36,743 nt of DNA, from positions 1-36,743 of the IMG/VR virus record IMGVR_UViG_3300042402_006430, one strand, 5' to 3'. A program made the position numbers and the translations under genes. Source of the stretch: a virus. The notes below the pieces were generated by a model. That model did no database searches, had not been told where the DNA came from, and saw only the letters and a program-made list of their open reading frames with translations. The stretch's first letter is position 1, and the number at the start of each line of letters is the position of its first letter. Of the stretch, positions 14,416-36,743 are shown one piece after another.

Positions 14416-14600
14416 AAAGCTACAAAATTAAAAAAAGAAGCCACAGATTCATCCCATATATCGCTGGAGAACCTGTGACTTCTTTTGAAAAACCTAAATT
14501 ACCTCTTTGGTACTTCTCAAAAATTCATAAACCAAATATCTTCAAAAGACAAAGTTTTATTTTGGAGCAACAGCAGGAGCAACAGGTGCGCCCGGTTTAG
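14412..14600 (+). CDS. Small coupled ORF, possibly real
   Basis: 62 aa, basic start (MKSYKIKKRSHRFIPYIAG) and a Gln-rich end. It is preceded by a good AAAAAGGAAAT site and overlaps the upstream stop by ATGA, both typical of real genes. Against it, the last 44 bases overlap the 3' end of the convergent Ala/Pro-rich gene, and its tail is simply the antisense of that repeat. No function can be suggested. Confidence 0.4.
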   Translation: MKSYKIKKRSHRFIPYIAGEPVTSFEKPKLPLWYFSKIHKPNIFKRQSFILEQQQEQQVRPV

Positions 14601-15006
14601 CAGGTGCGGCAGGTGCAACAGGAGCGCCCGGTTTAGCAGGTGCAACTGGTGCGCCCGGTTTGGGAGCCGCTTGTGCTGCTTTTTGATTTTCAGCAGCCAT
14701 TCCATTAACCTGTTTTACTATTGCATCTATTGCTTTTCTTGTTTCTGGGTTTGTAATTCCGCTTGTATTAATTTTTTTCATAGCGACTTGTAAGTCTGTA
14801 ACAGCTTTTACTTCACTTGGACTTGGTAGTTTCGCTTGGGGGGCAACAGTCCCAGCACCAGCAGGGGCGGGAGCAGCACCAGCGGCAGGAGCGGCACCAG
14901 CAGCAGGAGCAGCGGCAGGAGCAGCGGCAGGAGCGGCACCCGGAGCCGCAGGAGCAGCAGCATTTTCTCTTTGAATCTGAAGATAAAACTCATAAAAAGA
15001 CTTCAT
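14557..15006 (-). CDS. Ala/Pro-rich protein with capsid-targeting-like N-terminus
   Basis: 149 aa. It starts MKSFYEFYLQIQRE, the same 14 residues as the 15097-16053 product. It continues with about 45 residues of Ala/Pro/Gly repeats, a short helical domain (about 60-110), and three C-terminal repeats of KPGAPVAP. The leader resembles the T4 capsid-targeting sequence; the rest is low complexity and probably unstructured. GAGGTGATAT precedes the ATG. The GC-rich repeat DNA stands out from the AT-rich neighbourhood. It is likely an internal head protein, by inference. Confidence 0.65.
   Translation of the reverse strand: MKSFYEFYLQIQRENAAAPAAPGAAPAAAPAAAPAAGAAPAAGAAPAPAGAGTVAPQAKLPSPSEVKAVTDLQVAMKKINTSGITNPETRKAIDAIVKQVNGMAAENQKAAQAAPKPGAPVAPAKPGAPVAPAAPAKPGAPVAPAVAPK
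14575..14667. repeat. Tandem repeat encoding KPGAPVAP units
   Basis: The unit GGTGCGCCCGGTTTAGCAGG recurs three times with small changes, giving the repeated C-terminal peptide of the minus-strand Ala/Pro-rich protein. A second GC-rich tandem stretch at about 14860-14950 encodes the Ala-Pro-Gly run. Confidence 0.7.
14965..15006 (-). repeat. 42-bp leader repeat, copy 1
   Basis: The first 42 bases of this gene match the first 42 bases of the gene at 16053 with one mismatch (41/42), encoding MKSFYEFYLQIQRE. The sequences downstream are unrelated. Confidence 0.9.
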
Positions 15007-15096
15007 ATATCACCTCGTGAAATTTAATTTCAATGTTATTTTTCGATCAGATCTTTATTAATCATATCTAGTAATTATAAGTTATTGATCGAATTT

Positions 15097-16053
15097 TTAT
15101 TTTCTTGTTCCATATCCAAGCATTCTTACTGCTGTATCGACTACTGAATTTCTTGGTTTTGATGGGGTAGGAATAATTGCTTGATTCCTTTTTGCTGCTA
15201 ATGTTTCTTTTACATTTTGAGTTCTTGCTGCTGATTCTCTTGCAGCTTGCGCTCTTGCCTCTTGTCCAGTTGTTAGTTGTGTGGTTGTTGGTTGTGTAGT
15301 TGTTGGTTGTGTAGAAGAAGCATTAGCTTGTGTTGAAGTGTTAATTGCAGGAGGATATTTTCTTGCTACTGCGGCAAGCATTTGTTTTAATACTACAACT
15401 GCATTGGGATATTTCGCATAAGCATCAGTCCAAGTTTTTTCCATTACTTGTAATCTACCAGACTTAGAATTATCAACTATTGATTGTTGCATCTTAGGTC
15501 CCAATGCATCCCAAAATTCTTTAGGAGTTTTTGCAGATAATGTCTTTTGAGCATTCATTCCTGTTTGTGCTGTTTGCGCTGGTGCTGCTGGTGTCGTTGG
15601 AGTTGTTGTTAATGTATTATCTTTCTTTGCTATTTGAGATAATTTGTCTATTGCGATTGTTGGTAACTTATTTCTTGTAAATAAGTTTTTAATTTTTTGA
15701 AAATTAGTATCATTTAACAATATTTTTTTCATTTCAGGATTCATCATGCTATATGTAACATCGGGTGCAAACTTATTTCTAGTCAACAATGTATTTATTG
15801 TTTTAGCTGTCTCTCTGATTTTGTTATCATCTACTGCTGGCGCTGCTGGCGCTTGTCTTTGTGATTGTGCTGCTTTTATTTGTGCTTCCTTATTAGGGTC
15901 CCAATTTGGGTCTTCCATTCTTTTCATAATATCAAGTTTTCTTTGCATATCTTGATTATTTGTTGGATTTCCTGTGACGATAGAGGAAGAATAATTGGTT
16001 GTCGTCGCTGCTTCTCTTTGAATCTGAAGATAAAACTCATAGAAAGACTTCAT
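15097..16053 (-). CDS. Thr/Ala-rich protein with capsid-targeting-like N-terminus
   Basis: 318 aa. The leader MKSFYEFYLQIQRE is followed by an Ala-Thr-Thr run. Then come two similar helical units with IRETAKTINTLLTRNKFAPD and KIKNLFTRNKLPTIAID, and a low-complexity stretch of Gln-Pro-Thr-Thr repeats (about 245-265). A Glu closes the leader (QRE-AA), as in T4, where the prohead protease cuts after Glu; the residue two before it is Gln instead of the T4 Leu or Ile. The ribosome binding site is AAGGAAATATT. It is probably packaged in the head. Confidence 0.7.
   Translation of the reverse strand: MKSFYEFYLQIQREAATTTNYSSSIVTGNPTNNQDMQRKLDIMKRMEDPNWDPNKEAQIKAAQSQRQAPAAPAVDDNKIRETAKTINTLLTRNKFAPDVTYSMMNPEMKKILLNDTNFQKIKNLFTRNKLPTIAIDKLSQIAKKDNTLTTTPTTPAAPAQTAQTGMNAQKTLSAKTPKEFWDALGPKMQQSIVDNSKSGRLQVMEKTWTDAYAKYPNAVVVLKQMLAAVARKYPPAINTSTQANASSTQPTTTQPTTTQLTTGQEARAQAARESAARTQNVKETLAAKRNQAIIPTPSKPRNSVVDTAVRMLGYGTRK
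16012..16053 (-). repeat. 42-bp leader repeat, copy 2
   Basis: Partner of the 14965-15006 copy, with one base different. Conservation at the DNA level, including third codon positions, points to recent duplication of the leader cassette. Confidence 0.9.
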
Positions 16054-16062
16054 AATATTTCC

Positions 16063-16605
16063 TTAAACAATTTTAATTTTAATATCAGGTTGTTTTTCTG
16101 TAACTTTACCTTCTCCAGTAACAACATCTTCTTGGAATCTCTGACAAATCAATTCCAATCTCAAAGCTCCCCACATCTTGAATTCACCTAAGTTCCTTTG
16201 AACAATAACCCAGTTTTCTCTAAGATGTGGAGTAAACAATCTCGAACCAATTTTAGGAGGATGTCCTACATTTTGCAAAACAGCACGATAATTAAGTTCA
16301 AACTTCATTTCATCTGGAGCATCAATTCCAAACTGATTCAATAAGTTCTGTGAAGGTATAGGCTCATAAGTACACCATAACTCAACAGGATTGTTTGAAA
16401 ATAATTTATTCCTCGCTTCCAAATAAATAGGGTCAATCATATCAGGACTGATTATAACCTCATAATAATAAATCGGAGATCCACCTCTCTTGATCGCCTC
16501 CTGATCCCACAAATTAAAAAGGTCGTGTGTTCGATCCAATGGATCGAACATTTGAGTACTACCTCTTAATTGATATGGAGTCCCATCCAAATTACATATA
16601 GCCAA
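16063..16605 (-). CDS. Probable neck/virion structural protein with TTG start
   Basis: 180 aa. The start is TTG at 16605, because a near-perfect AAGGAGG site lies 4 bases before it and no ATG fits. The segments SPIYYYEVIISPDMIDPIYL and EFKMWGALRLELICQRFQED resemble head-tail connector or neck proteins of T4-like phages (gp14 region), but the length is below T4 gp14 (256 aa). It sits between the very large 1090-aa protein and the Thr/Ala-rich protein, 17 bases after the former. The neck assignment is tentative. Confidence 0.6.
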   Translation of the reverse strand: MAICNLDGTPYQLRGSTQMFDPLDRTHDLFNLWDQEAIKRGGSPIYYYEVIISPDMIDPIYLEARNKLFSNNPVELWCTYEPIPSQNLLNQFGIDAPDEMKFELNYRAVLQNVGHPPKIGSRLFTPHLRENWVIVQRNLGEFKMWGALRLELICQRFQEDVVTGEGKVTEKQPDIKIKIV

Positions 16606-16622
16606 GATCCCTCCTTAAATTT

Positions 16623-19600
16623 TTAGAATGCAAAACGCCTTCTAGCCATATGCTCAGACAAAGAAATCCATCCATTTCCATATGTTGATTCAACTTTGGG
16701 TTTATTCGGTTTACGACCACGCTTTTTAGGACCAACTGGCGCTACTGGCGCTACTGGCTTTATTCTATTTTTATTCCAATTCATGTATTCCCTGCTGCCG
16801 GGAATTTCGGGAGCAAGCCTATTATCGTCAGTTGTACTATCTGGACCTATAACATATCGTGATTTTGGATCTGTTGCAGGATAGGGATAATATTTTTCTC
16901 CGGGAGCCATTCCCTGCATTCCAGTAACATATTTATTCATGAATTCTTTTCCAGCATCAATACCAATTTGACTTGGTCTTAAGCCAGTAAGATAGGCATT
17001 GCTGGTAGGACCATGCATTGTCCAACGACCAACTGGAAGAGATTGAAGCCTTTCTCCGGGCATAGCACGAGGTAAAGGAGCATTAAAGTCTTTCTTTACT
17101 TCTTCGCTGTCCAAACGAGGATCATTTGCTTTGTTCAAAATATCACGCAATGCTTTCAATCTTCCAAGAGGCTTTTTACCTGCCATACCCTTGTTGCTAG
17201 CATATGGACTTGCCTCTGGATCATTATCGTATTTTACAAGGAAAGGTGTTTCTACTGGATCTGTTAATTCAGAACGCTTTATGTTTCCTAGTACGGAAAC
17301 TTCCTTGTCTGTCAACAACTTAAGTTCTTTTATTTCCTTTTCAAGATTAGCTACTTGATTTTTCAGATCATCTCTGCTATTTCGTAAATCACTCAATAGC
17401 TTAACATCTAAATTTCCAGCTTGTTTTTCAAGTTCTCTAATTTTATTTTCATAAGAATCTAGTGTTTGTTTAGCATAAGACAACTCAGATTGTGTTCTCC
17501 ACAATTTTATTGATGCCACACTTGATCTATGCTGTTCACCGGGATCAATTGCGCCCGCCAAGGGCATGTACCAAGTAGAAGAATGATCCTTAGTATACAA
17601 CTTATTGATTGATTCAGCATCAAATCTTCGTGCTCCACCTCCATATTTATAAGGATAATAGCTGCTTGCGAATTGATCAACAACGAATAAAGGCAATTGT
17701 TGTTTTTTTATTCTTTCCTGATCAAGTTTGTAAAGTTTATTTATTTTACGAAGAGTATCATCTGCCATTATTTTCTTTTCTTGATCACTTACTTCTCTCC
17801 TTGCTACTTGTTGAGGAGTTGTTCCCATTCTTTCTTGTGCGAAATCTCCGGGAAGTCTAGAGTATCCTTTACCCTTAATTTTAACGTGTCTAACCAATCT
17901 TTTAAGACGTGGGTCAATTTTGCCAACAGCAAAAGCTTTTTGGAAAGGAGTTAGTGGAATTTTTTCACTTTCTATTTCTTCACTTTCTGAGGGTGGCCAT
18001 TGGCTAAGTTGGATAATTTTTTCATTGTCTGAAGGTTCAGCAAGTCCAAGACCTTTAGGATCAATAGCGACTTCTTTTGCTATTTTTCTTATATCTCCGA
18101 TATATTTGTCGGCACTTTCAACATTAATTCCTAAAAACTCAGCAACTTTTTGCTTGTTCCATCTATGTTCACCATCAATGACATAAAATGCTACTTTCTT
18201 GATTTTTTTCCACTTTTCCTTGATTTGTGCGGAATTGGTCTTAGCGATTTTATCGTCAATAATACTTAAAACATTCTTTTCCAACTTTTCATCAGGTTCT
18301 GGAAATACATATTCTTCTTCTTCCACTCCTCCTTCAGGTGTTGTTTTCCTGACAATAGGCTCTCTGCTTGTACCAATAAGATTACGAGTTAATATTTTTT
18401 GCCGTTCATTTTTGTAAGTTTCTGGTTGTACTTCTGAAAGTTCTTCGACTCTTTTGGCAGTTTCTTGTTTTTGTTTAGCGAATAAATCTTGAGCACTATC
18501 AAGAATAGATTGAAATTCTTTTTGATTGGGTATTTTTGCGCCTCTAGCATCTTTTTTGATTTTATTGAAAAGTTCACGGACATGTTGAAGGAGAGATTTA
18601 TCATCATCTTTATTTCTAAAATATTTAAGTAACTCTTTAGAAAAGTCTTCTTGATCTTTATTAAGACCTAACATTCTCTTAGCTGGAGATCCTACTATTC
18701 CTGATAAAATAACTGATCGATTATCTTTTTCGATATCTATTTGTCTTTTTGTTTTTTCATCTGTAGGAATTGCCTCGAATGTTACTTGTCCAAAGTTTTT
18801 CTTAACTTTTTCAGCGAATTCTTCTGCTTGTTCCTCTTCTTCCGCATCATTTCTAGTCTTCCAGTTTTTCCCAAAAATGGTTGTTTTGTAACCAACATAT
18901 AGTGACCATTTCTTTGCTTGACTGCCAATCATGGCCATTACTTTTGATTGATCTTCTTTTGACAAAGTCCCATCAGGATTTTGCATTGCTTTTACTATAC
19001 GGAATTGTTCGCTTCCCGTTCCCGGAATGATTTCTCCCAATTCTTGACCTTTTTCTGCTTTTTTTCTTCTAGTATAATTGAGTATTCCTGATGGCCATAT
19101 GTGCATTGTGATAATTGTATCATGAGTAAGTTCGTCTAAATCTACAAATTTGCCACGGTTTCCTAATGTTCTTTTAGATTGACGACAAATACTCCTAATC
19201 ATATTAGTAACACTGTCATCTGCCAATACTCTCTTACCATTTTCTATGTTGAAAAGTCCAAGTCGAGGCATAATTTCTTTGTCAATGTCTTTGGAAGATG
19301 CCGCAAAAGGGTTACTAGCTATTTGTTTGCTTTTGATTTTTGAAGCTTGCCTTTTTTCTCTCATTGCAGCTACTTCTTTTGCTCTTGCTTTTGCTCTTGC
19401 TCTTGCTCTTAATTCTTTTATTTTTTCATTTTGTTCTTTTGTTCTATATTTTGACGCTTCCTTTTCTGCTGCATCATATGCTATCTCTTCTGCTGTTTTT
19501 GGCTTCTTTTTCCTTGCAGGAGCAACATATGGAATTTTTTTATATGGATATGGTTTATCGTATTCTCTTCCTAAGCGTGGATCATAATAACTTAATTTAC

Positions 19601-19895
19601 TTCTATCAAGGTTTTTTTCTTCTACTTCTTTATCAAATGCTGCAAGTTCTGCTTCGTAATCTTCTGGATCTTTATCAACCAATCTATAACTACCTGAACC
19701 TTTAGGAACCCTTTCCTCTAGATCGTCAAACCTAACTCTTTTATAGGGGCTTGGCCTTTCACCTTGTCCCAATTTACCAAGCGCTGATTGCTGATAAGTA
19801 TCAAGTTCATCTTTGTAATCTTCTGGATCTTTTTCAATCCATGTGTAATCAGATGGTGCTTCGGTGAATAAAAGCCATGATCTAAAGTCCAACAT
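16623..19895 (-). CDS. Very large protein with capsid-targeting-like start and sigma-factor-like segments
   Basis: 1090 aa. It starts MLDFRSWLLFTEAP, like other leaders here. A KDPEDY motif occurs twice (about 22-27 and 75-80), and residues 150-190 are a basic Arg/Ala/Lys helix. Residues 226-272 (VTNMIRSICRQSKR, DLDELTHDTIITMHIW) read like a sigma region 2. Residues 576-605 (HRWNKQKVAEFLGINVESAD) read like a region 4 helix-turn-helix. A coiled coil follows (about 800-862), and the C-terminus is basic. I infer a packaged protein that may act on host transcription soon after injection. The sigma resemblance is by eye only; a structural core protein is the main alternative. Confidence 0.7.
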   Translation of the reverse strand: MLDFRSWLLFTEAPSDYTWIEKDPEDYKDELDTYQQSALGKLGQGERPSPYKRVRFDDLEERVPKGSGSYRLVDKDPEDYEAELAAFDKEVEEKNLDRSKLSYYDPRLGREYDKPYPYKKIPYVAPARKKKPKTAEEIAYDAAEKEASKYRTKEQNEKIKELRARARAKARAKEVAAMREKRQASKIKSKQIASNPFAASSKDIDKEIMPRLGLFNIENGKRVLADDSVTNMIRSICRQSKRTLGNRGKFVDLDELTHDTIITMHIWPSGILNYTRRKKAEKGQELGEIIPGTGSEQFRIVKAMQNPDGTLSKEDQSKVMAMIGSQAKKWSLYVGYKTTIFGKNWKTRNDAEEEEQAEEFAEKVKKNFGQVTFEAIPTDEKTKRQIDIEKDNRSVILSGIVGSPAKRMLGLNKDQEDFSKELLKYFRNKDDDKSLLQHVRELFNKIKKDARGAKIPNQKEFQSILDSAQDLFAKQKQETAKRVEELSEVQPETYKNERQKILTRNLIGTSREPIVRKTTPEGGVEEEEYVFPEPDEKLEKNVLSIIDDKIAKTNSAQIKEKWKKIKKVAFYVIDGEHRWNKQKVAEFLGINVESADKYIGDIRKIAKEVAIDPKGLGLAEPSDNEKIIQLSQWPPSESEEIESEKIPLTPFQKAFAVGKIDPRLKRLVRHVKIKGKGYSRLPGDFAQERMGTTPQQVARREVSDQEKKIMADDTLRKINKLYKLDQERIKKQQLPLFVVDQFASSYYPYKYGGGARRFDAESINKLYTKDHSSTWYMPLAGAIDPGEQHRSSVASIKLWRTQSELSYAKQTLDSYENKIRELEKQAGNLDVKLLSDLRNSRDDLKNQVANLEKEIKELKLLTDKEVSVLGNIKRSELTDPVETPFLVKYDNDPEASPYASNKGMAGKKPLGRLKALRDILNKANDPRLDSEEVKKDFNAPLPRAMPGERLQSLPVGRWTMHGPTSNAYLTGLRPSQIGIDAGKEFMNKYVTGMQGMAPGEKYYPYPATDPKSRYVIGPDSTTDDNRLAPEIPGSREYMNWNKNRIKPVAPVAPVGPKKRGRKPNKPKVESTYGNGWISLSEHMARRRFAF

Positions 19896-21109: not shown

Positions 21110-21373
21110 TTTTTTATCAGGAACTATACTAACAGCCAAACCAAGCTTACTTAACTGCTCATGATGATCAGCAACAGCCTTCATATAAGCCAATTCATAT
21201 ATGTCTGTCACAAGATGAAAAAAAGCCTTTAGATCACCTTCTGTCGCCATCGCAACACCTATACGCTCAATAATATTCTCGTTCTGAGCGTATCTCTCTT
21301 TCAAAACCTCAAACATCGTTTTCTTAACATGATGAATCTTTGGGTTTACCATCATGTCCATCCAATTTGTCAT
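21095..21373 (-). CDS. Small helical protein coupled to the 953-aa protein
   Basis: 92 aa, wholly helical (TMFEVLKERYAQNENIIERI, FHLVTDIYELAYMKAVADHH). Its ATG overlaps the stop of the preceding large gene as TAATG, with an AGGGAAG site upstream, so the two are made together. It is not recognised. It could be a chaperone or an internal head protein partner. Confidence 0.65.
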   Translation of the reverse strand: MTNWMDMMVNPKIHHVKKTMFEVLKERYAQNENIIERIGVAMATEGDLKAFFHLVTDIYELAYMKAVADHHEQLSKLGLAVSIVPDKKSRVE

Positions 21374-24231
21374 TAATTATCTTCCCTTTGCATTTTAATT
21401 AATTCTTCAATCTTATTCATCATCATATCATAGTCTTCTTTTCTAAACTTGTCTTTTATAACATTTATTCGACTCTTAATGGCATTAAGAGTTGGTTCAA
21501 ATGCTAACGCAAGTTTCGGATCGAAAACAATATTAAACAAGTTTTCAGGAGTTCTTTCTGCTCTCATCAATTTCATATAATTGACTTTTTCAGGAGAAAG
21601 CCTTCTGATTCTATTGATTTGTGATTGAGGAGTAACAGCAGAAGTAGTAGGAATGGCAGGAGCGGTAGGAGAGGTAGGAGAAACTCCTTCTATAGTTTTA
21701 GTTAATGCATTCTGAACAGCAACCAAAACTTCTTCCAAACCTTCAGAATCTCCCATAAATTGAGGATCAGTTTCTAAATCTTTTCCAATTTCAATAACAT
21801 ATGCACTGAACTTTGATGATCCCTGAGGTAAAAACTTACCACGAATTGCTGCTTCAGGCATACTTGACTTTTCAGCGTTAAGTTCTTCCATAGCATCATT
21901 TATTTGTCTTTGAATCATTGCATTTGGTCTTCTAGCAATAACTCCTGTTGGAGGAACTAATTTGGCTTTTTCTATCACATCCTTAACTACTGGAAGTTCT
22001 TTGAAAGCAATAATCATTCTGTTCAGATCATAACCTTCTTTTTCCCAAGCTTCAATTTGAGATTCTGCATTTTGTTGAGCTATTTTAGGAGGTAATGTAT
22101 TCGCACTTCTGTAAAAACTTGCAAGCATCATTGTCAAATCTTCAACAACAGCAGTTGTGCTGTAAGACATGTTCATGATAAGATTGCCAAGCTCTTCTTT
22201 GCTAATATTTGTATCCTTTCTCTTGTCCTTAGCAGCCTTAGATTTTTCTTCAGCTTCTTTAGCATCTGATTCCAATTTGGCTAAGTCTCTCAAATAGTTT
22301 GACATATTTGCAGGATCATAAGGGAAATCATTGTAATCGCCAGTATGCTGTATTCTAGTGCTGGACAAAGGATTCTCTTCTCTTGTCTGCCTCGTTTCTG
22401 CATCTTGAGATCTTCTTCTTCGTGTTCCACCACCACCAGACCAACTTTTTTGAGAAAGTAAGTTGGTTGCAGTATGTGCCATTCTCTCAATTGCTTTACT
22501 TAATTGTCTTCCAGATTTGTACTCGTTACTTACAGAGCCTTGTTCGCCCTCTTCTGGCTCAAAAAACAAATCATTGTCAAAGTTGTTTTCAATGTACTTT
22601 AATGCAAAACTATAAATAAGAGGAACATTTTGAAGCATCAAATACTTCTCATGATCAGTTTTACCACCACAATTAAGATTGTTGATACACCTAACAACTC
22701 CTTTTAGTATGTAAAAATACATATCACCACTTTGATCAATAACAGCAGAAGCTTCTCCATTTTGGACACTATGGCTTGCCATAGGTTGATTTGAAATGAT
22801 AACTTCAAAGGCCCTCTGATATTGAGCAGTTGCCTTGATAAGAGTCATCTTTTTTGCCGTGTTGTGATTGAGGAATAATCCTCCATCCTTAGATATTTTT
22901 TTGCCACTTGGATCAATATCATCAGTGATTTTGATGAAATCTTTTTTATGACCAACAATCATATTTGGATCATGTCTTTCTCTTTCTCCGGGTTCAATTT
23001 CTCTGTAAAAATGAGATTTTTTAACAAGAGGAACCCATTTTCTACCATCATTTTTGAAAGGAAGGAAAAGTGGAGGACCAATAATATCCTCTCTAATCTC
23101 ACCCTTGACTTTTCTTGTTCCTAAAGTCGCATCAATACCTTTTGGATAATTAGGTGGATATGGAGGACTTTTAATTTCTACTTTTTTATTCTTGAAGTCA
23201 GCCACAAGTCTCTTAATCGCTTCTTTTTCTATTACATCTTCTTTGATGTCTTTTGCACCACTGTGCATAAGCCTATGCTCTTGTCGGACTATTTTTTTAT
23301 ACCTTTCAACTTGTCTAGCCCTTTCAAATGTATCTTCATATCCTGTATCCATCCATTTGATTTTTGGATCAGAATTATCAAAATCTCCTAAAATACGGTG
23401 AGCATTTAATTCCATATATCTTTTAACAGCACGATCTATTTGATTTTCTGTTGGGAATTGCATTCCTCTTACCACATTAGGTTCCCCTAGAGTCCCTCTT
23501 ACAGGATCTCTTAATTCAAAACCATATTTCCCTTTTGTTCCCTCAAGCCCAGAACCACGCAAATGTTCTTGGCCCTTTGTCCTTTCAAGCTTGTGATAAA
23601 GTCTTCTCAAATAAGGATGAGCTTTAACAACAAGATCTTTACCACTTCTTTTGCCTCCTAACTGCTCAGGAGGCTCGCCATTTTCTTTTGGCATATAAAT
23701 CAGATCCTTGACAACAAAATCTACTGAATTAGGGTCGTCAACAACTTGTGCGTTATCTTCATTTTTAGAGTAAAAATGATCATTAGCGTATTTCTCAGCT
23801 AAATTATTAAACTCATCATCAGTTAAATCACGAGTCCAACTAGGATTGGAAGAAGTATTGATAGTTTCTATTTCTTCTTCACTCATTCCAAAAGGCTCTG
23901 GAATATTCATTATTTCTCTTGCCGTTTCTTCCGACCTTTCCTTCAAGAAATTTTTGATTGCGACTATAAGTTCCTTAAAACCTCTCGTTGCCTTGATTTC
24001 ATGCAATTTTTCAATTTGCTTGAAAAGCATTTCATAACGCTGATGAAGAGCCTGACCCCAAAGATTATAATTAAATTGCTTCAAAAAATCGATATCATCT
24101 TGGTCAAATTGCACGGATTTTCTTACAACTTGGCGCTCTTTAGCCATTTCATCTAAACGAAAATCAAAAAATTCATTGTATCGCCCTTTTCCAGTTGTCT
24201 TAAAAATATATTCTTTGAATGATTTTAACAT
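21373..24231 (-). CDS. 953-aa protein with capsid-targeting-like start
   Basis: Start set at ATG 24231 (MLKSFKEYIFKTTGKGRYNE), because GGATTG precedes it and the leader then matches the motif shared by other genes here; an in-frame start 18 codons upstream is possible. The protein is hydrophilic and mostly helical, with no catalytic motif I can name. Notable parts are a charged N-terminal helical region, a central PPYPPNYPKG and FLPFKNDGRKWVPLV beta region, a compact segment with FYILKGVVRCINNLNCGG (about 530-560), an Arg-rich GGGGTRRRRSQ linker, and a Pro/Thr/Ser-rich stretch near 865-890. It is probably a packaged head protein. It is similar in style to the 1090-aa product but not obviously homologous. 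Confidence 0.7.
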   Translation of the reverse strand: MLKSFKEYIFKTTGKGRYNEFFDFRLDEMAKERQVVRKSVQFDQDDIDFLKQFNYNLWGQALHQRYEMLFKQIEKLHEIKATRGFKELIVAIKNFLKERSEETAREIMNIPEPFGMSEEEIETINTSSNPSWTRDLTDDEFNNLAEKYANDHFYSKNEDNAQVVDDPNSVDFVVKDLIYMPKENGEPPEQLGGKRSGKDLVVKAHPYLRRLYHKLERTKGQEHLRGSGLEGTKGKYGFELRDPVRGTLGEPNVVRGMQFPTENQIDRAVKRYMELNAHRILGDFDNSDPKIKWMDTGYEDTFERARQVERYKKIVRQEHRLMHSGAKDIKEDVIEKEAIKRLVADFKNKKVEIKSPPYPPNYPKGIDATLGTRKVKGEIREDIIGPPLFLPFKNDGRKWVPLVKKSHFYREIEPGERERHDPNMIVGHKKDFIKITDDIDPSGKKISKDGGLFLNHNTAKKMTLIKATAQYQRAFEVIISNQPMASHSVQNGEASAVIDQSGDMYFYILKGVVRCINNLNCGGKTDHEKYLMLQNVPLIYSFALKYIENNFDNDLFFEPEEGEQGSVSNEYKSGRQLSKAIERMAHTATNLLSQKSWSGGGGTRRRRSQDAETRQTREENPLSSTRIQHTGDYNDFPYDPANMSNYLRDLAKLESDAKEAEEKSKAAKDKRKDTNISKEELGNLIMNMSYSTTAVVEDLTMMLASFYRSANTLPPKIAQQNAESQIEAWEKEGYDLNRMIIAFKELPVVKDVIEKAKLVPPTGVIARRPNAMIQRQINDAMEELNAEKSSMPEAAIRGKFLPQGSSKFSAYVIEIGKDLETDPQFMGDSEGLEEVLVAVQNALTKTIEGVSPTSPTAPAIPTTSAVTPQSQINRIRRLSPEKVNYMKLMRAERTPENLFNIVFDPKLALAFEPTLNAIKSRINVIKDKFRKEDYDMMMNKIEELIKMQREDN

Positions 24232-24312: not shown

Positions 24313-25203
24313 ATGAGTAACACAATTTATATCCCAAGACCAACTCAAGATCAATATAATTCATTATCATGTAAAAGTGGTTGCGGAAATGGAGGAGGAA
24401 GTTGTGGAGGATTAGGGCCAACAGACCCTATTTATAATATCGGACCACGCAAAAATCGTGAAAAAGTTCGTGAACAAATCAAAGATTATGTCCTGACAAT
24501 GCTAGGAGCACCTGTACTACCACTTGAACTAGATGACCAACAACTTGAAAATAGTATAGATTTTTCTTTGCAAATATTTGAAGATTATGCCCCAGCTGAA
24601 TACTTTCAATACTATTCATTTTATACATCACCCGGACAAAGCGTCTACGAACTTCCTCCCGATGTCGGATTCGTTCGCCAAATTTCCTATAAAGAAACTG
24701 CAAACTACGCATTCTCTGCATCAGACCTCGGAGGAGTAATCCCTCTCGAATACATGGGAGCAGGTGCATATGGATCAATTGCAGGTGGCATAAACCCACA
24801 ACAACCAGTCTGGGGAAAAATGAGCGATTGGGTTCTCTATAAACAATACGAAGATATGTATAACCGCATCTCAGGACAACAAGGAGGATGGGAATACCTC
24901 GGCGGATATAGACATGTTAAACTTTATCCAGTTCCATATAGAACATACCCAGTCATCGTCCGATACCTACAAAGAAAACCAGACTTCCAAATCGTAACTC
25001 AAGCAATGCAAGAAGGAGCTCTCGCTTTTGCTAAAATTATTCTTGGAAGAATACGCTCAAGAATCGGAAATCCACCCGGCCCCGGTGGAGGAGTACAACT
25101 AGATGGAGCAGCTATACTCGCCGAAGGAATTCAAGACAAAAAGGATTTTGAAGAAAGATTATTGGTAAGATTTGGAGATTTATTGCCCATAAAAATGATG
25201 TAA
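24313..25203 (+). CDS. Neck protein, gp13-like
   Basis: 296 aa. After a Gly/Cys-rich start (CKSGCGNGGGSCGG) the sequence EQIKDYVLTMLGAPVLPLEL, SIDFSLQIFEDYAPAEYFQY, VWGKMSDWVLYKQYEDMYNR and HVKLYPVPYRTYPVIVRYLQ follows a pattern I associate with gp13 neck proteins of T4-like and cyanobacterial myoviruses (T4 gp13 is 309 aa). gp13 forms the ring joining head and tail. AAGCAAGGTAGCAAGTAT precedes the ATG. It is divergent from the 953-aa gene. The Cys/Gly-rich leader is unusual and similar in style to the small CGCG proteins at 35062 and 35340. Confidence 0.6.
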   Translation: MSNTIYIPRPTQDQYNSLSCKSGCGNGGGSCGGLGPTDPIYNIGPRKNREKVREQIKDYVLTMLGAPVLPLELDDQQLENSIDFSLQIFEDYAPAEYFQYYSFYTSPGQSVYELPPDVGFVRQISYKETANYAFSASDLGGVIPLEYMGAGAYGSIAGGINPQQPVWGKMSDWVLYKQYEDMYNRISGQQGGWEYLGGYRHVKLYPVPYRTYPVIVRYLQRKPDFQIVTQAMQEGALAFAKIILGRIRSRIGNPPGPGGGVQLDGAAILAEGIQDKKDFEERLLVRFGDLLPIKMM

Positions 25204-25219
25204 TATTTTTGGTGAATTG

Positions 25220-26006: not shown

Positions 26007-26173
26007 ACCACAACATATTCCAGTCACTGCTCCTAACATCATCCCACTCAAAATTTCCTGAGTATCGAACCAATGTAACAGAAGATGAATTAGAATCAAA
26101 AGAAAATGATCTGCTGTGGCACCAGCTTGTTAACCAATTTTTATTGAAATATTTCTTTTTCATGATTATTTGA
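25981..26173 (+). pseudogene. Possible split or frameshifted small ORF
   Basis: A GGAGG site sits 3 bases before ATG 25981, which gives only MTLPTF and a TGA. One frame over, 26000-26173 is open and codes for protein-like sequence (SKFPEYRTNVTEDELESKEN, LLWHQLVNQFLLKYFF) with no ATG of its own. A single-base change near 25999 would join them into a 64-residue protein. This may be a frameshift mutation, a sequencing error, or recoding. The first codons overlap the end of the GT8 gene. Confidence 0.35.
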
Positions 26174-26360
26174 AATAACATTTATCACCTTTGAAACAAC
26201 TGCTCATAAAACTATTTCTTTTCCAATCATCTTCGCCAATCATCGATACATTCCAATTTAGTTCCCAACAGAAAGAAATGTTTTGACAGATATTACATTG
26301 CATTAACCAACAATTAGAAACAGCAACTGATTTCATCACTTTTAATTATAGATTGAATCA
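26174..26360. other. Gene-free stretch
   Basis: No convincing ORF, repeat or RNA gene is visible between the possible split ORF and the terminator at 26361. Composition is AT-rich and ordinary. It contains a TTGACA at 26283-26288, but no matching -10 box at the right distance. Confidence 0.5.
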
Positions 26361-26394
26361 ACAAAAAAACCGCTCACATTTTTTTGTGAGCGGT
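26361..26394 (-). terminator. Strong rho-independent terminator
   Basis: A perfect 10-bp stem, ACCGCTCACA / TGTGAGCGGT (26369-26378 and 26385-26394), with a T/A loop is followed on the minus strand by TTTTTTT. It closes the 27097-26429 operon. Confidence 0.9.
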
Positions 26395-26428
26395 GAATGA
26401 TTATTTGTTTATCAGCCTATTTAAGACA

Positions 26429-26743
26429 TTAACTATCCATTTCAAATCTACACCATTCCGGCTGATAAATCAGTTCTACAGCATTTAAGCTGATGATAAC
26501 TGAGCTTCCGATTGGATCTTCTGAGTTTGGTTTTTCGCTGTTGCTAGCACCGCTGCTTTCTACGGCCCTAGCTTGGGCTAGGATGACACAATCGTCTGTT
26601 ACCTTACTCAGGATTCCCCGATAATTAAAACGAGCGCAGAGGATAGCCACAGGCTGTCCAATGTACTCTTGCATAATTGCAGCCATATTGCTACCAGTTG
26701 ACTTTTCTGGTGATACACGGGCAAAGTTTCGCTTAACAGCCAT
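26429..26743 (-). CDS. Small Sm-fold-like protein
   Basis: 104 aa. Residues 20-100 contain MQEYIGQPVAILCARFNYRG, ILSKVTDDCVILAQARAVE and VIISLNAVELIYQPEW. The order of strands (a G-x-x-V strand, a Y-x-G-x-L turn, a D-x-x-V-x-L strand, then a late hydrophobic strand) is like that of LSm/Hfq or small SH3-like barrels. The loop between is Ser/Asn/Glu-rich. A strong AAGGAAGGATC site and relatively GC-rich codons suggest high expression. It lies in an operon with 26777-27097, behind a sigma-70 promoter and before a strong terminator. The Sm call is by pattern only. Confidence 0.6.
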   Translation of the reverse strand: MAVKRNFARVSPEKSTGSNMAAIMQEYIGQPVAILCARFNYRGILSKVTDDCVILAQARAVESSGASNSEKPNSEDPIGSSVIISLNAVELIYQPEWCRFEMDS

Positions 26744-26776
26744 GATAGATCCTTCCTTTATGGTGATAGCTATTGA

Positions 26777-27097
26777 TTAATCGGCCACTTGACGTTCACG
26801 ATTTGCCGAAAGGGGATCATATTCCTTTTGGCGAGAAACACAGATCCATTCCCCCATTGGGAGTGTTATGGAATTATGTTCATCGTGAGTGATAGTAACG
26901 TCACATTTTAGTGAGCGGACATAGATGTCGCCCTTTTCGTCTACTACAGATTCCATCTCGCTAATTGATGGAGATGAAATTTTGTGGCTATGACCAGTAA
27001 CCTCGCCATAGGCGAGGATATTGGTTTTGTATGGTTTAGTCTTGGATGGGATCTCCTTGACAGACTTGAAGAAAATGTCACCTTGTCTTGCCTGCAT
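26777..27097 (-). CDS. Conserved small beta-rich protein (GEVTGHSH family)
   Basis: 106 aa. The pattern QGDIFFKSVKEIP, ILAYGEVTGHSHKI, THDEHNSITLPMGEWICVSR and EYDPLSANRERQVAD belongs to a widespread family of unknown function that I recall from phages and Planctomycetes. Three conserved His (two in GHSH, one in HDEH) plus a Glu could form a metal site in a small beta-barrel, cupin-like fold. GGAGAAA is the ribosome binding site. It is the first gene after the promoter at 27160-27132. Confidence 0.65.
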   Translation of the reverse strand: MQARQGDIFFKSVKEIPSKTKPYKTNILAYGEVTGHSHKISSPSISEMESVVDEKGDIYVRSLKCDVTITHDEHNSITLPMGEWICVSRQKEYDPLSANRERQVAD

Positions 27098-27131
27098 GGC
27101 TTTCTCCGTTTGGTTTCATCGTCACATTTTT

Positions 27132-27160
27132 AGTATATGCGGATTTCTTCGTGTTGTAAA
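27132..27160 (-). promoter_or_regulatory. Sigma-70-type promoter
   Basis: On the minus strand TTTACA (27160-27155), an exact 17-base spacer and TATACT (27137-27132). It drives the two-gene unit 27097-26429. The close match to the bacterial consensus implies early transcription by the host polymerase. Confidence 0.7.
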
Positions 27161-27169
27161 TAAAAATCT

Positions 27170-27898
27170 TTACTCGTGTTCGCCGATTTTTAGTAGAGCG
27201 CCAATTGTTATGACCATATAGTAAATGCCAGCAGGGATGAGAAAAATAGGATCTTGAACAAATCCTAGCCAAGGGAATATGATTGCAAAACATATTGTGA
27301 CAAAAGGAAGTACGCCTTTAGCTTCAACTGTGAAGATGTTTTTGGCAATTTTTATGATTACCTTTAATATTTGGAGCAAGATGAATTTAACTGCTTTCCA
27401 TGCAGCCCATAATACTGCCCCTCCAACCATTGCTGCGCCTTTTGCCAGCATTCCCATAATACTTTCTGTTGTGGGAGGGAGATCTCCTTTTAATAGTTGA
27501 GCATCACTTTGTGCTTCTTTTTTAATTTTTTCGGCAGCTTCTGGATATTTTGCTTCAAATTGTCGTTTGAATTCTGCAATTTTGCTTTTTGCTTGTTCGC
27601 CTTTTTGGGATATTTGCGCTGATGACATTCTAGCTATTTCATCTTCTTTGATTGAGTTTTTTAGTTTTCCAAAAAAACTTACGGCAGAAGATTTTTCCTT
27701 TGAAACATCAGCATTTTCTTCTGATTCTTCTGATTCTTTTGATTTTGCTGCATCTTCTAATGCCTCGTTGATATTTTCAATAATTCTATTGATTCTACGG
27801 GTCATTTTTTTAATTGAATTCTTATCATGACCCGCATCATAATAATGATCTTGATTGATTACGCCAGCTAAATATTGCATTTCGTCTAATTTTTTCAT
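27170..27898 (-). CDS. Membrane protein with coiled-coil N-terminus
   Basis: 242 aa. The N-terminal half is charged and helical (INRIIENINEALEDAAKSKE, an acidic Ser/Glu stretch, then FKRQFEAKYPEAAEKIKKEA). The C-terminal half holds hydrophobic segments: about 145-190 (GAAMVGGAVLWAAWKAVKF onward), then FVTICFAIIFPWLGF and LIPAGIYYMVITIGALL. The layout suits a membrane-inserted protein with a cytoplasmic or virion-internal coiled coil. No family is recognised. A CAAGGAG site precedes the ATG. It lies 30 bases after the DUF6745-like gene, behind the same promoter. Confidence 0.65.
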   Translation of the reverse strand: MKKLDEMQYLAGVINQDHYYDAGHDKNSIKKMTRRINRIIENINEALEDAAKSKESEESEENADVSKEKSSAVSFFGKLKNSIKEDEIARMSSAQISQKGEQAKSKIAEFKRQFEAKYPEAAEKIKKEAQSDAQLLKGDLPPTTESIMGMLAKGAAMVGGAVLWAAWKAVKFILLQILKVIIKIAKNIFTVEAKGVLPFVTICFAIIFPWLGFVQDPIFLIPAGIYYMVITIGALLKIGEHE

Positions 27899-28568: not shown

Positions 28569-29219
28569 CTAGGAAAAAGGATATGGTCCACTGAATCCAA
28601 ATCTTTGAGATAGCATCTTCCAATTTTGCTTTACCCATGCTTTGAATGATGATTCTGCTTGTTGGACCATAGTTCCGGGTCCATCAAATGTTTCACCTTT
28701 GTCACGATATTCGATTACATGTGTTGCTTCGTGAGCTATCGTGCTAGCAATTTCTATTATTGCAGCAGGACTGTCTCCATATTTCTTGATGTGATCATCA
28801 ACATCGATTCTTATTATTGATGATGCAATGATCTTTTTGGGGTCTATTGTTTTTTTTGCTTCATCTGGAAGATGGTCTAATATTTGTTTCCTTGAAAGTT
28901 TTTGGACTTTTTTATCAATTAATGGGTCGTTCGGATAAATTTTCCTGATTTGATCCATTACATCTTGCCCAATGACATTTGAGTTTTCTGTATTGATGAA
29001 CATTCCAAATGCTTTTCCTGAATGCAGGTCTGCGATTGTTGATATGTTATATAAAAGCTTATGTTCTTGATCTAGATTTTGATCGTACATTCTAACGAGT
29101 TCAATGCTATCTTTTATCTTAGCATATTTTGTAAGAATTTGAGAAGCGTTAACGAATTCAGTTCCTACAGTTGACTGCTCTTCGATTTGTAGCCAGTTGG
29201 AGAAATTAAGATGTATCAT
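28569..29219 (-). CDS. HExxH zinc metallopeptidase with capsid-targeting-like start
   Basis: 216 aa from ATG 29219; a longer frame to 29339 would read antisense through the neighbouring gene. The start MIHLNFSNWLQIEEQ matches the shared leader. Near residues 155-175, IASTIAHEATHVIEYRD carries HEATH, a zincin HExxH motif, with a Glu 5 residues after the second His; a downstream E in VQQAESSFKAW could be a third ligand. The middle is helical, with FGMFINTENSNVIGQ. A packaged or injected protease is plausible. The family is not identified beyond the zincin motif. The divergent gene starts 25 bases away. Confidence 0.7.
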   Translation of the reverse strand: MIHLNFSNWLQIEEQSTVGTEFVNASQILTKYAKIKDSIELVRMYDQNLDQEHKLLYNISTIADLHSGKAFGMFINTENSNVIGQDVMDQIRKIYPNDPLIDKKVQKLSRKQILDHLPDEAKKTIDPKKIIASSIIRIDVDDHIKKYGDSPAAIIEIASTIAHEATHVIEYRDKGETFDGPGTMVQQAESSFKAWVKQNWKMLSQRFGFSGPYPFS

Positions 29220-29243: not shown

Positions 29244-29837
29244 ATGAAAAAATTTGATGATTGGCGAAAAGAACAAGATCTGGAAGGAACCCAGCTTCAA
29301 ATTGTAAGCAAAAAAGAGTTCCTTGATGAATGCATCCAATATTTTGGATCAGTTTTGCGTGGAAACATGAAAACTGTTAAGGAATATAGGAAAGAAAATT
29401 TGATTGAGGCGGCTGAACTTTCGAGATATTCGGTTGAGGTTAATTACAGAACTAATGCAGATGAGGTTCTTGAGGGTTTTGCGAAGATTTGTTTGGGATA
29501 TATTAGTGCTGCTCTTAAAAATGCTGGTTATCACACCAAGCATGTTTACACACAGAAGCCTTTGAGGCTTTTGGTTTCATCGAGAAATTGGGATGATGGA
29601 GAGTGGGCTGGATGTGTCACATGGCATCCTGACCATAAGTGTTTTGTTTTGAGTAAAGGTAATTATAATCGTGACAGAAACACGATAAGCATATCGAAGT
29701 CTGAGAGATGTACTGGTAAATCTGCATCGGAAATTAGTAAAGAAGTAATCAACACTATGCATCACTTAAAAGACCAACCTGATAAACATCGGGAAAAGCT
29801 TAAGCCTGTTGCTTTGAAGAGAGGCCCTAAGCGATGA
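29244..29837 (+). CDS. Uncharacterised protein with capsid-targeting-like start
   Basis: 197 aa from ATG 29244 (MKKFDDWRKEQDLEG). An in-frame ATG at 29211 lacks a site, whereas ATGAGGATCAC lies directly before 29244. It has a helical N-terminal half (LDECIQYFGSVL, AAELSRYSVEVNYR), a beta-like part (LRLLVSSRNWDDGEWAGCVT, KCFVLSKGNYN) and a basic tail ending KRGPKR. The family is unknown. It overlaps the Nudix gene by ATGA, so the two are co-translated. TATATAA at 29223 is a candidate late -10 box. Confidence 0.65.
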   Translation: MKKFDDWRKEQDLEGTQLQIVSKKEFLDECIQYFGSVLRGNMKTVKEYRKENLIEAAELSRYSVEVNYRTNADEVLEGFAKICLGYISAALKNAGYHTKHVYTQKPLRLLVSSRNWDDGEWAGCVTWHPDHKCFVLSKGNYNRDRNTISISKSERCTGKSASEISKEVINTMHHLKDQPDKHREKLKPVALKRGPKR

Positions 29838-30322
29838 ATTTGTATGAGCAGTATCATCACATTGGCAAAGATGGGAAGAAATATTGGGGTAAGGCAGGCG
29901 CTGGTATCATCTTTACTGATGGGAAAAAAATACTTCTGCTCAAAAGAGCAGAGAAGGGTGACCATTTTGGCAAGTGGAGCATACCCGGAGGAAAAGTTGA
30001 GAATGGCGAAAATATAATTGATGCTGCTCAAAGGGAAGCAAGAGAAGAGTGTGGTAATTTTACGGGTTATCGATTCGGTCATTACGATGATGCTGATGGT
30101 CGTCATCATTTTCATACATTCTTTTACGCAATTGATAAGCCTTTTGACGTGACTTTATCAGATGAACATAGCGATTATAGTTGGGCCAATCTTGATGAAG
30201 TGGAAAAGATGAGTTTGCATCCAAGATTTAAGTCAAATTGGTTTTATTTCAAGAACAAAATAAATAAAAGATTACCTCAAATCAAGTCTTTTAGTGAATG
30301 GATCAAGCAAAGAGGTTATTGA
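29834..30322 (+). CDS. Nudix hydrolase with C-terminal SFSEW tag
   Basis: 162 aa. The Nudix box is complete: GGKVENGENIIDAAQREARE followed by ECG, with both catalytic Glu of REAREE. It is preceded by the usual WSIPGG. Nudix enzymes hydrolyse nucleoside diphosphate-X compounds; in phages they clear NADH, ADP-ribose or mutagenic nucleotides, or decap RNA. FGHYDDADGRHHFHTFFYA lies where substrate specificity is set. The C-terminus QIKSFSEWIKQRGY repeats the motif found at the N-termini of neighbouring proteins. A bidirectional terminator follows. Confidence 0.88.
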   Translation: MNLYEQYHHIGKDGKKYWGKAGAGIIFTDGKKILLLKRAEKGDHFGKWSIPGGKVENGENIIDAAQREAREECGNFTGYRFGHYDDADGRHHFHTFFYAIDKPFDVTLSDEHSDYSWANLDEVEKMSLHPRFKSNWFYFKNKINKRLPQIKSFSEWIKQRGY

Positions 30323-32303: not shown

Positions 32304-32534
32304 TTAGTGACTAACATGATGCTTGTGCTTTGTAATAGGAGGTCCGGGTGACATCTTCCATAGTGCATCAGCAGCACGACTCATAAAGTATGCGTCAGGA
32401 TAATGACTTCTTATATATCCATCAGGATAAGCCCAATGAGCAATACCGTTCCTTGCGATACTGCCACCTTCATCTTGTTTGTAAACTGGTAATTCTGCCT
32501 TATTGTCACCAGCCCATTGAATAAAGCTTTTCAT
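32304..32534 (-). CDS. WAYPD small protein B with capsid-targeting-like start
   Basis: 76 aa, starting MKSFIQWAGDNKAELP. It shares with the next upstream gene the block HWAYPDGYIRSHYPDAYF and AADALWK. It ends in a His-rich tail (TKHKHHVSH). An AGGAAAATAATA site precedes the ATG, which follows the stop of the paralogue by 2 bases. After its TAA the same frame stays open for 24 more sense codons to a TGA at 32229-32231. Function unknown; likely a packaged or virion-linked protein, judged from the leader. Confidence 0.7.
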   Translation of the reverse strand: MKSFIQWAGDNKAELPVYKQDEGGSIARNGIAHWAYPDGYIRSHYPDAYFMSRAADALWKMSPGPPITKHKHHVSH

Positions 32535-32536: not shown

Positions 32537-32755
32537 TTATTTTCCTGCCTTTGGTCCGCCCTTACCATAACCCAACTTAAATAGTGCATCAGCAGCGTAA
32601 GGAGTGAAATATGCGTCTGGATATTGGTTGCGAACATAAGCGTCAGGATAGGCCCAATATGCGATTCCTGCTCTTCTCTGTGATCCAGCTTCTTCTTGCT
32701 GATAAACAGGAAGTTCTTTCTTGGTTTTTTCAGCCCATTTTACAAATGTATTCAT
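32537..32755 (-). CDS. WAYPD small protein A with capsid-targeting-like start
   Basis: 72 aa: MNTFVKWAEKTKKELPVYQQ, then AYWAYPDAYVRNQYPDAYF, then AADALFKLGYGKGG and a basic tail. It is a tandem paralogue of the 32304-32534 product, with roughly half the positions identical by eye. A GCGAGGAAATTT site precedes the ATG. The YPD repeats within each protein (WAYPD and YPDAYF) may themselves be an internal duplication. Family unknown. Confidence 0.7.
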   Translation of the reverse strand: MNTFVKWAEKTKKELPVYQQEEAGSQRRAGIAYWAYPDAYVRNQYPDAYFTPYAADALFKLGYGKGGPKAGK

Positions 32756-33078: not shown

Positions 33079-33103
33079 GACGAATGAAAGGTCAAGTTTC
33101 ACA

Positions 33104-33490: not shown

Positions 33491-33514
33491 TTAAAATAGA
33501 AGTAAATTCTTCTG

Positions 33515-35048: not shown

Positions 35049-35061
35049 GGATAAATAGAGT

Positions 35062-35277: not shown

Positions 35278-35339
35278 ATATACAGATATATAATTCAGTT
35301 ATAATTGCACAAGTTAAAAATTTGTGGAAAGCAGGCAAA

Positions 35340-35573
35340 ATGGCTTGTGGTTGTGGTAAAGGCAGTGCCGCTAGAGGAAGATCTCCTGTTATTAGGCCAG
35401 TTATATCAGCTAGGTCTGTGACTGGTGGAATTGCATCAGCCAGAACTCCAACTGAGGTCATGAATCAATCTATTACTCCTCAGCCTCCAATAAATGCTGG
35501 TGGCATCAATGCCGAAAAAAGAAAAGTTCAGGCTTTGCGTAGAGATGCGATTAAAAAATCACTAGGCAAATAA
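35340..35573 (+). CDS. Small CGCG-motif protein B
   Basis: 77 aa: MACGCGKGSAARGRSPVIRP, then RSVTGGIASARTPTEVMNQS and a basic helical C-terminus (KRKVQALRRDAIKKSLGK). It is Arg/Ser/Thr-rich and probably flexible. The N-terminal CGCG resembles protein A, 62 bases upstream, and the Cys/Gly-rich start of the gp13-like protein. AAAGCAGGCAAA precedes the ATG. Function unknown. Confidence 0.65.
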   Translation: MACGCGKGSAARGRSPVIRPVISARSVTGGIASARTPTEVMNQSITPQPPINAGGINAEKRKVQALRRDAIKKSLGK

Positions 35574-36368
35574 CTATTCGCCTATATTAACTTTGTTTTT
35601 ATATTCTGGTAAATTCCATAATGAATCAGGCAAATGAACATTGATTTGTTTGCCTTTTACATCCCATTCCATGCTTGCTTTTTCATCTTTCCAGTCAATG
35701 AAAATAATATTATCTTTGTATATTGTGCTGACAATAACATTTGAATTCATATCCATAAGTTTTCTAGACTGAACTTCTTCGGATTTTTTGTTGATAACTG
35801 TCATAAAAACACAATCTTCTCCACTTGCTGTTATTCTTTTCTCGTAAAGATAAAGGTATACATCGTCTTCTTTTGAGGCATAAATTTTACTTTGATCTAT
35901 TACGCCAACATTCAATGATTCTATCATCCAAGCAGGATTCAGAGGTGTTTTTAAGTTGGTTTTATAAAGATCCTCATGTTTAGCAAAATATAGTGAAGGA
36001 GGATTCACTCTCTTTGACCAAAACCAGAAAATATTTTGGTTTGATCCAAGGTCCATTTCTCTTCCAGTTATCTTACTTGTGACTATAAAACGGAAGAATT
36101 TATCTTTTTTATGAGCCAGATCACCACTTAACCTAAAAGAAAAACCATTGCTTTTCACTTTTACAGGCATTGAATGAACAACAACCGAATCTATCTTTCT
36201 GTTCTTTTCATTGATTTTATCGACTAATGGTAGTTTTTTTCTATATTCTTGTTCGATTATCGGTTCTTCTAAAGGAATATCTTGGAATTTATTTGTTTTT
36301 TTCAGATATAATGAAAAAATGATTAGGAAGCCACATAGAATTACTGTGAAATTCAGTAATTTTACCAT
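35574..36368 (-). CDS. Membrane-anchored protein resembling a planctomycete family
   Basis: 264 aa. A single hydrophobic segment at residues 4-22 (LLNFTVILCGFLIIFSLYL) is an uncleaved anchor or signal. The rest is periplasmic-type and beta-rich: GFSFRLSGDLAHKKDKFFRF, REMDLGSNQNIFWFWSKRV, NPPSLYFAKHEDL and TPLNPAWMIESLNV. The order 'dLGS-x-FWFW / PPxLYxxxHxdl / P-x-P-x-W-x-IExL' is what I remember from conserved Planctomycetes envelope proteins. TTAATTAGGATTAATC contains the ribosome binding site. It abuts the convergent small gene. A host-derived envelope protein is my best reading. Confidence 0.65.
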   Translation of the reverse strand: MVKLLNFTVILCGFLIIFSLYLKKTNKFQDIPLEEPIIEQEYRKKLPLVDKINEKNRKIDSVVVHSMPVKVKSNGFSFRLSGDLAHKKDKFFRFIVTSKITGREMDLGSNQNIFWFWSKRVNPPSLYFAKHEDLYKTNLKTPLNPAWMIESLNVGVIDQSKIYASKEDDVYLYLYEKRITASGEDCVFMTVINKKSEEVQSRKLMDMNSNVIVSTIYKDNIIFIDWKDEKASMEWDVKGKQINVHLPDSLWNLPEYKNKVNIGE

Positions 36369-36446
36369 GATTAATCCTAATTAAAAAAGCAAATGTTCCA
36401 CATATATAGTTTCATCAGTTGTGTTTAATCTTTCAAAAGGAACAAC

Positions 36447-36743
36447 ATGCTATCTTATAAAAACTGGAAGATTATGAATGAATCTATTCTTCCAAGCTTC
36501 AATCTTGGTTTGGGCAGACATTCTAATCTTGGTATCCAGTCACAGTTTGGTTTTGAAGAATCTGGCGCTATGTACAAGAAGAATAAAAAAAAGAAAATGG
36601 TTGACGATGAACTTGTTCGACCCGGAAAAAAACGTGATGTTGCTGGTGATGAGCCAGAAGTAGATGTCGATGTAGATGTTGAAACAGGTAAAAAGAAAAA
36701 ACACAAGAAAAACAAAAAACTTTCAATTTGTTCTAAGTGTGGA
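36447..36743 (+). CDS. N-terminal part of a gene cut by the window edge
   Basis: 99 codons are visible, with no stop. The start MLSYKNWKIMNESILP has the shared leader pattern, and AAAAGGAACAAC supplies a ribosome binding site. It continues with FNLGLGRHSNLGIQSQFGFE, then Lys-rich and Asp/Val-rich low complexity (PEVDVDVDVETGKKKKHKKN) and a possible zinc knuckle, CSKC, at the edge. Probably another packaged protein. Confidence 0.65.
   Translation, partial: MLSYKNWKIMNESILPSFNLGLGRHSNLGIQSQFGFEESGAMYKKNKKKKMVDDELVRPGKKRDVAGDEPEVDVDVDVETGKKKKHKKNKKLSICSKCG

Follow-up and report, generated by a model that had tools for sequence, protein, structure and literature searches.

The window analysed here, that is, the whole 36,743-base stretch of IMG/VR virus record IMGVR_UViG_3300042402_006430, raises the question of why nine of its proteins begin with a similar short peptide. 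In a reading made from the sequence alone (the sequence-only reading), these N-terminal leaders were proposed to act as the T4 capsid-targeting sequence (CTS) does, and all nine could be read from open reading frames (ORFs) at the starts listed below. Our analysis favors the same answer, a T4-type CTS, with a probability of about 0.85, and it is well supported by sequence comparison that a lineage of huge phages has extended such a leader to tens of genes. The proposed device was supported by the profile ranks of the T4 internal proteins ipI-III, by the spacing of the aromatic residues, by the [L/I]xE motif that often follows and by the head genes of relatives.

14557..15006, minus strand: Pro/Ala-rich protein of 149 residues; leader MKSFYEFYLQIQRE at 14965-15006 (ORF; above profile threshold)
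15097..16053, minus strand: protein of 318 residues; leader MKSFYEFYLQIQRE, as in the 14557 gene, at 16012-16053 (ORF; above threshold)
16623..19895, minus strand: protein of 1090 residues; leader MLDFRSWLLFTE at 19860-19895 (ORF; above threshold)
21373..24231, minus strand: protein of 952 residues; leader MLKSFKEYIF at 24202-24231 (ORF; above threshold)
28569..29219, minus strand: HExxH protein (HEATH) of 216 residues; leader MIHLNFSNWLQIEE at 29178-29219 (above threshold)
29244..29837, plus strand: conserved protein of 197 residues; leader MKKFDDWRKEQ at 29244-29276 (homologs keep the pattern)
32304..32534, minus strand: protein of 76 residues; leader MKSFIQWAGDNKAE at 32493-32534 (ORF; above threshold)
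32537..32755, minus strand: paralog of 32304, 72 residues; leader MNTFVKWAEKTKKE at 32714-32755 (ORF; above threshold)
36447..36743, plus strand: 99 N-terminal residues of a protein cut by the window end; leader MLSYKNWKIMNE at 36447-36482 (ORF)

Frequency of the leader in the window and its relatives

The window carries genes for a contractile tail of T4 type (sheath, two gp19-like tubes and a gp15 sheath stabilizer), for a protein of the T4 baseplate family and for a PHROG 211 head-tail adaptor; no head genes were found in it. Its nearest relative found was G001, an IMG/VR contig of 225,527 bases whose adaptor is 97% identical, and further relatives reach 343 and 381 kb. The uncultured phage record LR756511 (595,163 bases) encodes an AAA protein 36% identical to that of the window. 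All 18 related IMG/VR records (G numbers) are linear and possibly fragments.

Genes were called with a simple hexamer-and-start-site caller, and their N-termini were scored with a broad profile, which was seeded with eight window leaders at a training fraction of 0.25 and whose threshold was the 99.9th percentile of internal windows. When the window and its near-twin G001 were excluded from training, 8 of the 45 called window genes scored above threshold, as compared to 0.04 expected, and none of 196 internal Met positions did so. Left-out counts in the relatives were 18/263 (G001), 12/111 (G002), 20/281 (G003), 18/133 (G004), 9/100 (G007), 17/434 (G009), 5/99 (G011), 16/106 (G012), 15/134 (G018) and 37/1042 (LR756511). 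A sharper profile, with the core [S/T/N]-F-x-[E/Q]-[W/F/Y]-[L/I], was trained on all 11 related records, so that its counts are not left-out ones; T4 was never in its training. It placed the leader on 238 of 2748 called genes as compared to 13 of 10214 uncalled ORFs. Among 196 core hits with the first aromatic at residues 3-8, this position was most often residue 4 (104), as in T4, and residue 3 in 47.

These figures come from the genome-wide profile scan that the sequence-only reading had suggested, and the doubt it had raised, that the motif might be equally frequent in random ORFs, did not hold. Short N-termini resembling F-x-x-W could be frequent in AT-rich phages through composition: loose patterns match 3-5% of internal Met positions, and the control phage SPO1 gave one hit among 185. 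The excess over uncalled ORFs, and the conservation of the leader in the 29244 family described below, leave such an account with next to no probability; for the leader set as a whole chance is refuted, and single members may still be chance.

The 29244 protein was missed in the profile scan because the gene caller had picked the upstream start 29211. In a separate search of its family, 80 of 131 relatives were kept and collapsed to 57 distinct bodies. The leader pattern, with Trp accepted too as the first aromatic, stood at the start of 51 of these 57, as compared to 3 of 230 later Met positions, and start 29244 is therefore favored over 29211. The predicted fold of this family was of moderate confidence (predicted local distance difference test, pLDDT, 76) and had no match at E <= 0.001 in the PDB or the viral library; searches of its sequence against Pfam and PDB sequences gave nothing notable.

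Bodies and cargo behind the leader

The leader is carried by unrelated bodies. After the first 18 residues had been masked, the 210 broad-profile hits fell into 131 body families, 32 of which had at least two leader members. The claim that the window bodies are unrelated stood for eight body families and failed for one pair, 32304 and 32537, which are paralogs. Retention of the leader within families varied: 13 of 15 members (in 11 records) were above threshold in family 3, that of the 32304 gene; 3 of 9 (in 9 records) in family 29, that of the 21373 gene; and 7 of 8 in family 41, that of the 36447 protein, which has 415 residues in G001.

At corresponding positions in relatives, leaders were found on different proteins. 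The slot of the 149-residue protein holds a flagged leader in G001, G003 and G004 on proteins of different BLAST families, the G001 DNA being still partly alignable to the window at 82%; the start is related and unflagged in G002 and G011. In the sheath-adaptor stretch, the 1090-residue protein has a G001 homolog that retains the leader. Its slot is occupied by other body families in G002 (304 residues, MRIPEFKSWF, flagged at the weaker threshold) and G011 (518 residues, MINILFRKWF, unflagged), and is empty in G003 and G004. With the 1090-residue protein, tblastn against 50,697 phage records gave no match at E <= 0.01; a scan of viral_contigs gave a single relative. In the 29244 family, the conserved core lies 13 to 63 residues from the start; thus, the leader was kept while the linker changed.

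Genes 14557 and 15097 have unlike flanks around leaders that are identical at 41 of 42 nucleotides, from which we conclude that the two leaders share recent ancestry. Such identity would also be expected of a nucleic-acid feature, for example a translation enhancer or recombination site, that is translated incidentally. This is very improbable, since leaders vary widely while their aromatics stay at fixed spacing, and since similar residues occur at the C-terminus in the NUDIX family. The 15097 leader is retained at all three related loci, and the gene is not at the corresponding place in G001. At window positions 14557-16605 and at two further loci (L315 and L316), a tandem pair of leader genes stands where G001 has one; because L315 and L316 hold both genes, gain and loss are both possible.

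Against Pfam and PHROGs, the leader proteins of the window other than the cut 36447, eight in all, gave sub-threshold matches only. The 28569 protein is a candidate zinc metallopeptidase from its HExxH motif, and its leader may be cut after IEE; its predicted fold was of low confidence (pLDDT 64, about 30 across the leader) and had no PDB match at E <= 0.001. It belongs to one of nine leader families with HExxH, a motif found in 9/131 leader families as compared to 22/1477 others (odds ratio 4.9, p = 0.0005, unadjusted for family size or protein length; in some of the nine, such as families 37 and 70, a single member carries the leader).

Clear Pfam matches were obtained for 7 of 20 leader proteins that we picked and scanned singly: NUDIX, Peptidase_C39, PolyA_pol, Radical_SAM, PfkB with cytidylyltransferase, a UvrD-like helicase and tRNA_lig_CPD, a 2H-type phosphodiesterase. 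When representatives of the families were scanned (128, as 3 of the 131 had no usable reference and were dropped), the scan matched 61 families, the first 25 of which were listed. A TPR protein among the matches listed is probably a chance hit, as a single one of the 16 members of its family carries the leader. The UvrD-like helicase of G012 (24996-27575, L154) starts with two leader-like motifs in succession; the other two members of its family are unflagged.

Likeness to T4: profile ranks, processing sites and head genes

For packaging in T4, ten N-terminal residues of IPIII are enough, targeting depends mainly on residues 4 and 7 and processing on 8 and 10, and the gp21 protease cuts at L/I-X-E, as described in a review (PMC9026906). 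T-even internal proteins are reported to be diverse, with the CTS as their only common feature (PMC3012670). Like these, the clade proteins combine a short N-terminal leader and aromatics three apart with dissimilar bodies, and an L/I-X-E motif often follows. Among 260 T4 N-termini, the T4-naive sharp profile ranked gp61.1 first, ipI second, ipII fifth and ipIII sixth; three internal proteins would fall in the top six by chance with a probability of about 7e-6. The best-scoring protein, gp61.1 (L271, T4 18966-19130), is a hypothetical protein of 54 residues and a candidate unrecognized internal protein on this score.

A cleavage-type motif follows many leaders. For this analysis, leaders were defined by their core alone and redundant N-termini were removed beforehand. 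We found [LIM]xE after 73 of 186 leaders (39%); when the position was slid by 15-45 residues, the counts were 11/186, 7/186, 6/186 and 7/175, and among non-leader proteins the count was 240/2403. Similarly, [LIM]NE followed 20 of 186 leaders, none when slid, and occurred in 18 of 2403 non-leader proteins. Leaders with [LIM]xE end most often at residue 10-12, and S, A, G and N are the commonest following residues.

The gp21-type protease, for which a search had been suggested in the sequence-only reading, is encoded by relatives: Pfam Peptidase_S77 was matched over the cut-off in 9 of the 18 related IMG/VR records (G007 and G015 among them seem to be near-duplicates) and in LR756511, and not in the window fragment. 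The nine records with no match show nothing firm, because they are linear and possibly fragments; in G001, the protease and the capsid gene were both looked for and neither was found. Peptidase_S78, considered as an alternative protease, was found in none of 14 records. A second Peptidase_S77 match, in addition to the main prohead protease, lies at LR756511 242621-242989. The gp23-type capsid protein was found in 10 of 14 records. Its gene order in G003 and G009 is T4-like, namely a protein of 634/645 residues, the protease, a protein of about 300 residues and the capsid protein; the order is the same in the six other listed records, among which G002 has one extra gene between. We take the protein of about 300 residues to be gp22-like by position; it has 12-19 [LI]xE sites as compared to 6.3-7.2 predicted from composition. 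In all eight capsid proteins examined, FLNE lies close to the N-terminus and L[MIF]NE directly before the highly conserved region, and the proteases have LNES (7 of 8) or LKES (1 of 8) near the start. Thus, one site type is common to leaders, capsid proteins and proteases, and all three may be cut there.

The leader could instead be an N-terminal helix that docks proteins to another phage assembly, such as the tail or baseplate, a replication compartment or a membrane site. Several leader genes of the window do stand among tail genes, and a strict [LIM]xE is absent downstream in 113 of 186 leader proteins. However, the leaders resemble those of T4 internal proteins, the capsid protein and protease have the same Asn-Glu sites, the head gene order is T4-like, and the leader is on none of the 9 sheath, 8 portal and 10 adaptor homologs found, so that we regard docking outside the head core as unlikely.

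Under the capsid-targeting reading, the two aromatics of the short N-terminal peptide would bind the leader protein to the prohead core, and a gp23-type shell would form around the core and enclose it. The gp21-type protease would then cut after [L/I/M]-x-E, often Leu/Met-Asn-Glu in this clade, removing the leader in many cases, and the freed cargo would remain in the DNA-filled head and be delivered along with the genome.

Several observations weigh against this reading. The trailing Glu claimed in the sequence-only reading is weaker in the window than supposed, a strict [LIM]xE directly after the core being present in just 2 of 9 leaders (28569 and 36447), and it follows only the above 39% of core-defined leaders. 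T4 gp22 as query gave no clade homolog, leaving the gp22 assignment positional. With the broad profile, gp61.1 and ipI again ranked first and second in T4, and ipII and ipIII fell to 32nd and 11th. With the sharp profile, only gp61.1 was above threshold, ipI-III being below it, and Alt, gp67 and gp68 had no score in either profile; our confidence is slightly reduced because T4 internal proteins rank high yet below threshold. Two protease-bearing phages gave few leader hits, phiM12 1/333 and Mel-JY01 0/222, and a gp21-type protease alone is therefore no predictor of a large leader set. Finally, families 2, 37 and 76 and two terminases gave hits that resemble domain starts or chance matches.

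The two terminases came from a search with 44 T4 genes that we chose as queries, 18 of which had clade homologs. None of 37 replication or nucleotide-metabolism homologs carried the leader, as compared to 2 of 61 others; these two are large subunits of terminase, and their hits are probably due to chance. The concern that replication enzymes might carry the leader equally often was thus eased in part: the difference from the overall rate has p = 0.07 and T4 DNA polymerase had no homolog, which makes the comparison only suggestive.

Phages with no Peptidase_S77 match were at background with the sharp profile (phiKZ 0/355, and SPO1 as given above), and hits in other phages were 4/315 in P-SSM2 and 2/371 in KVP40. 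The four cyanophage proteins are encoded at P-SSM2 NC_006883 99763-100529, 158143-159417 and 164043-164690, and one is annotated as a cytidyltransferase. The sole phiM12 hit (NC_027204 29851-30258) adjoins the gp21-type protease match.

The NUDIX motif, comparison with known systems and outlook

A further gene of the window carries a leader-like motif at the other end of its protein.

29834..30322, plus strand: NUDIX hydrolase; leader-like C-terminal motif KSFSEWIKQRGY at 30284-30319 (Pfam NUDIX for the G004 homolog)

This protein has no N-terminal leader. From 38 NUDIX loci, the removal of 10 duplicates (one also cut) left 28 distinct complete ones. F-x-x-W was present near the C-terminus in 23 of the 28, and 20 of these 23 score above 7; in one of the 23, L296, a leader-like start lies 55 residues upstream, should translation begin there. 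At two loci (L282 and L306) the leader is N-terminal and the C-terminal copy is missing, and a further three show neither motif, as if the tag could move between protein ends. The two N-tagged proteins would both belong to the five with no C-terminal copy by chance with a probability of about 0.026 (computed by hand, 10 of 378). A general C-terminal tag was considered and rejected: 17 proteins scored above 10 as compared to 6.2 expected, and five of them were NUDIX. Because the excess outside NUDIX is weak, we claim the C-terminal motif for this family only.

In contrast to T4, with three internal proteins, G001, G009 and LR756511 have 18, 17 and 37 leader genes in the left-out counts and 25, 32 and 53 with the sharp profile. 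The clade is like T4 in the protease and capsid genes of its relatives; unlike T4, it favors Trp as second aromatic, frequently has Asn-Glu at the site and has the NUDIX C-terminal motif. What appears new is the far larger cargo list, the leaders that outlast change of body or linker, and this C-terminal motif. DarB of P1 similarly has an N-terminal signal that packages a reporter, and its cargo defends against restriction; the signal lies in the first 30 residues, and its authors report no N-terminal consensus among Dar proteins (PMC9024508). SPN3US and phiKZ, as described in PMC5694885 and PMC9026906, have gp21-related proteases that cut head proteins after Glu, as well as ejected proteins. 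Several SPN3US propeptides exceed 100 residues (PMC5694885), unlike those of the clade, and phiKZ differs in its lack of leader hits. Among the titles and abstract openings that our searches of open-licence PMC literature gave, none reports a C-terminal capsid tag or, for huge phages, a large set of leaders.

The review mentioned above describes CTS-like sequences on other T2 and T6 proteins and suggests that the CTS is perhaps a general route by which T4-like phages package varied proteins (PMC9026906). A broader proposal, which we rate at somewhat below even odds, is that one portable tag, at either protein end, serves as a general virion address code that loads many different proteins for delivery, its stock comprising candidate proteases, a NUDIX hydrolase, RNA- and DNA-acting enzymes and many others. 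The genome seems to list its own virion-internal proteins. If so, sequence alone would suffice to list the proteins that uncultured huge phages package and probably inject. T4 internal proteins include anti-defense factors, IPI acting against a restriction enzyme and IPIII being needed by T4 clones on ECOR17 (PMC9391042), and Tad1 is so far the sole anti-defense protein described in jumbo phages, according to a 2026 review (PMC13282480). Given the T4 factors, a readable leader would therefore provide a testable catalogue of candidate first-strike proteins.

Two observations concern other genes of the window. At 264-3223, a DUF2201_N (metallopeptidase-like) protein, labeled HNH endonuclease in PHROGs, adjoins an AAA ATPase, and at 7867-8412 a Sigma-70 region 2 protein lies within the tail gene block.

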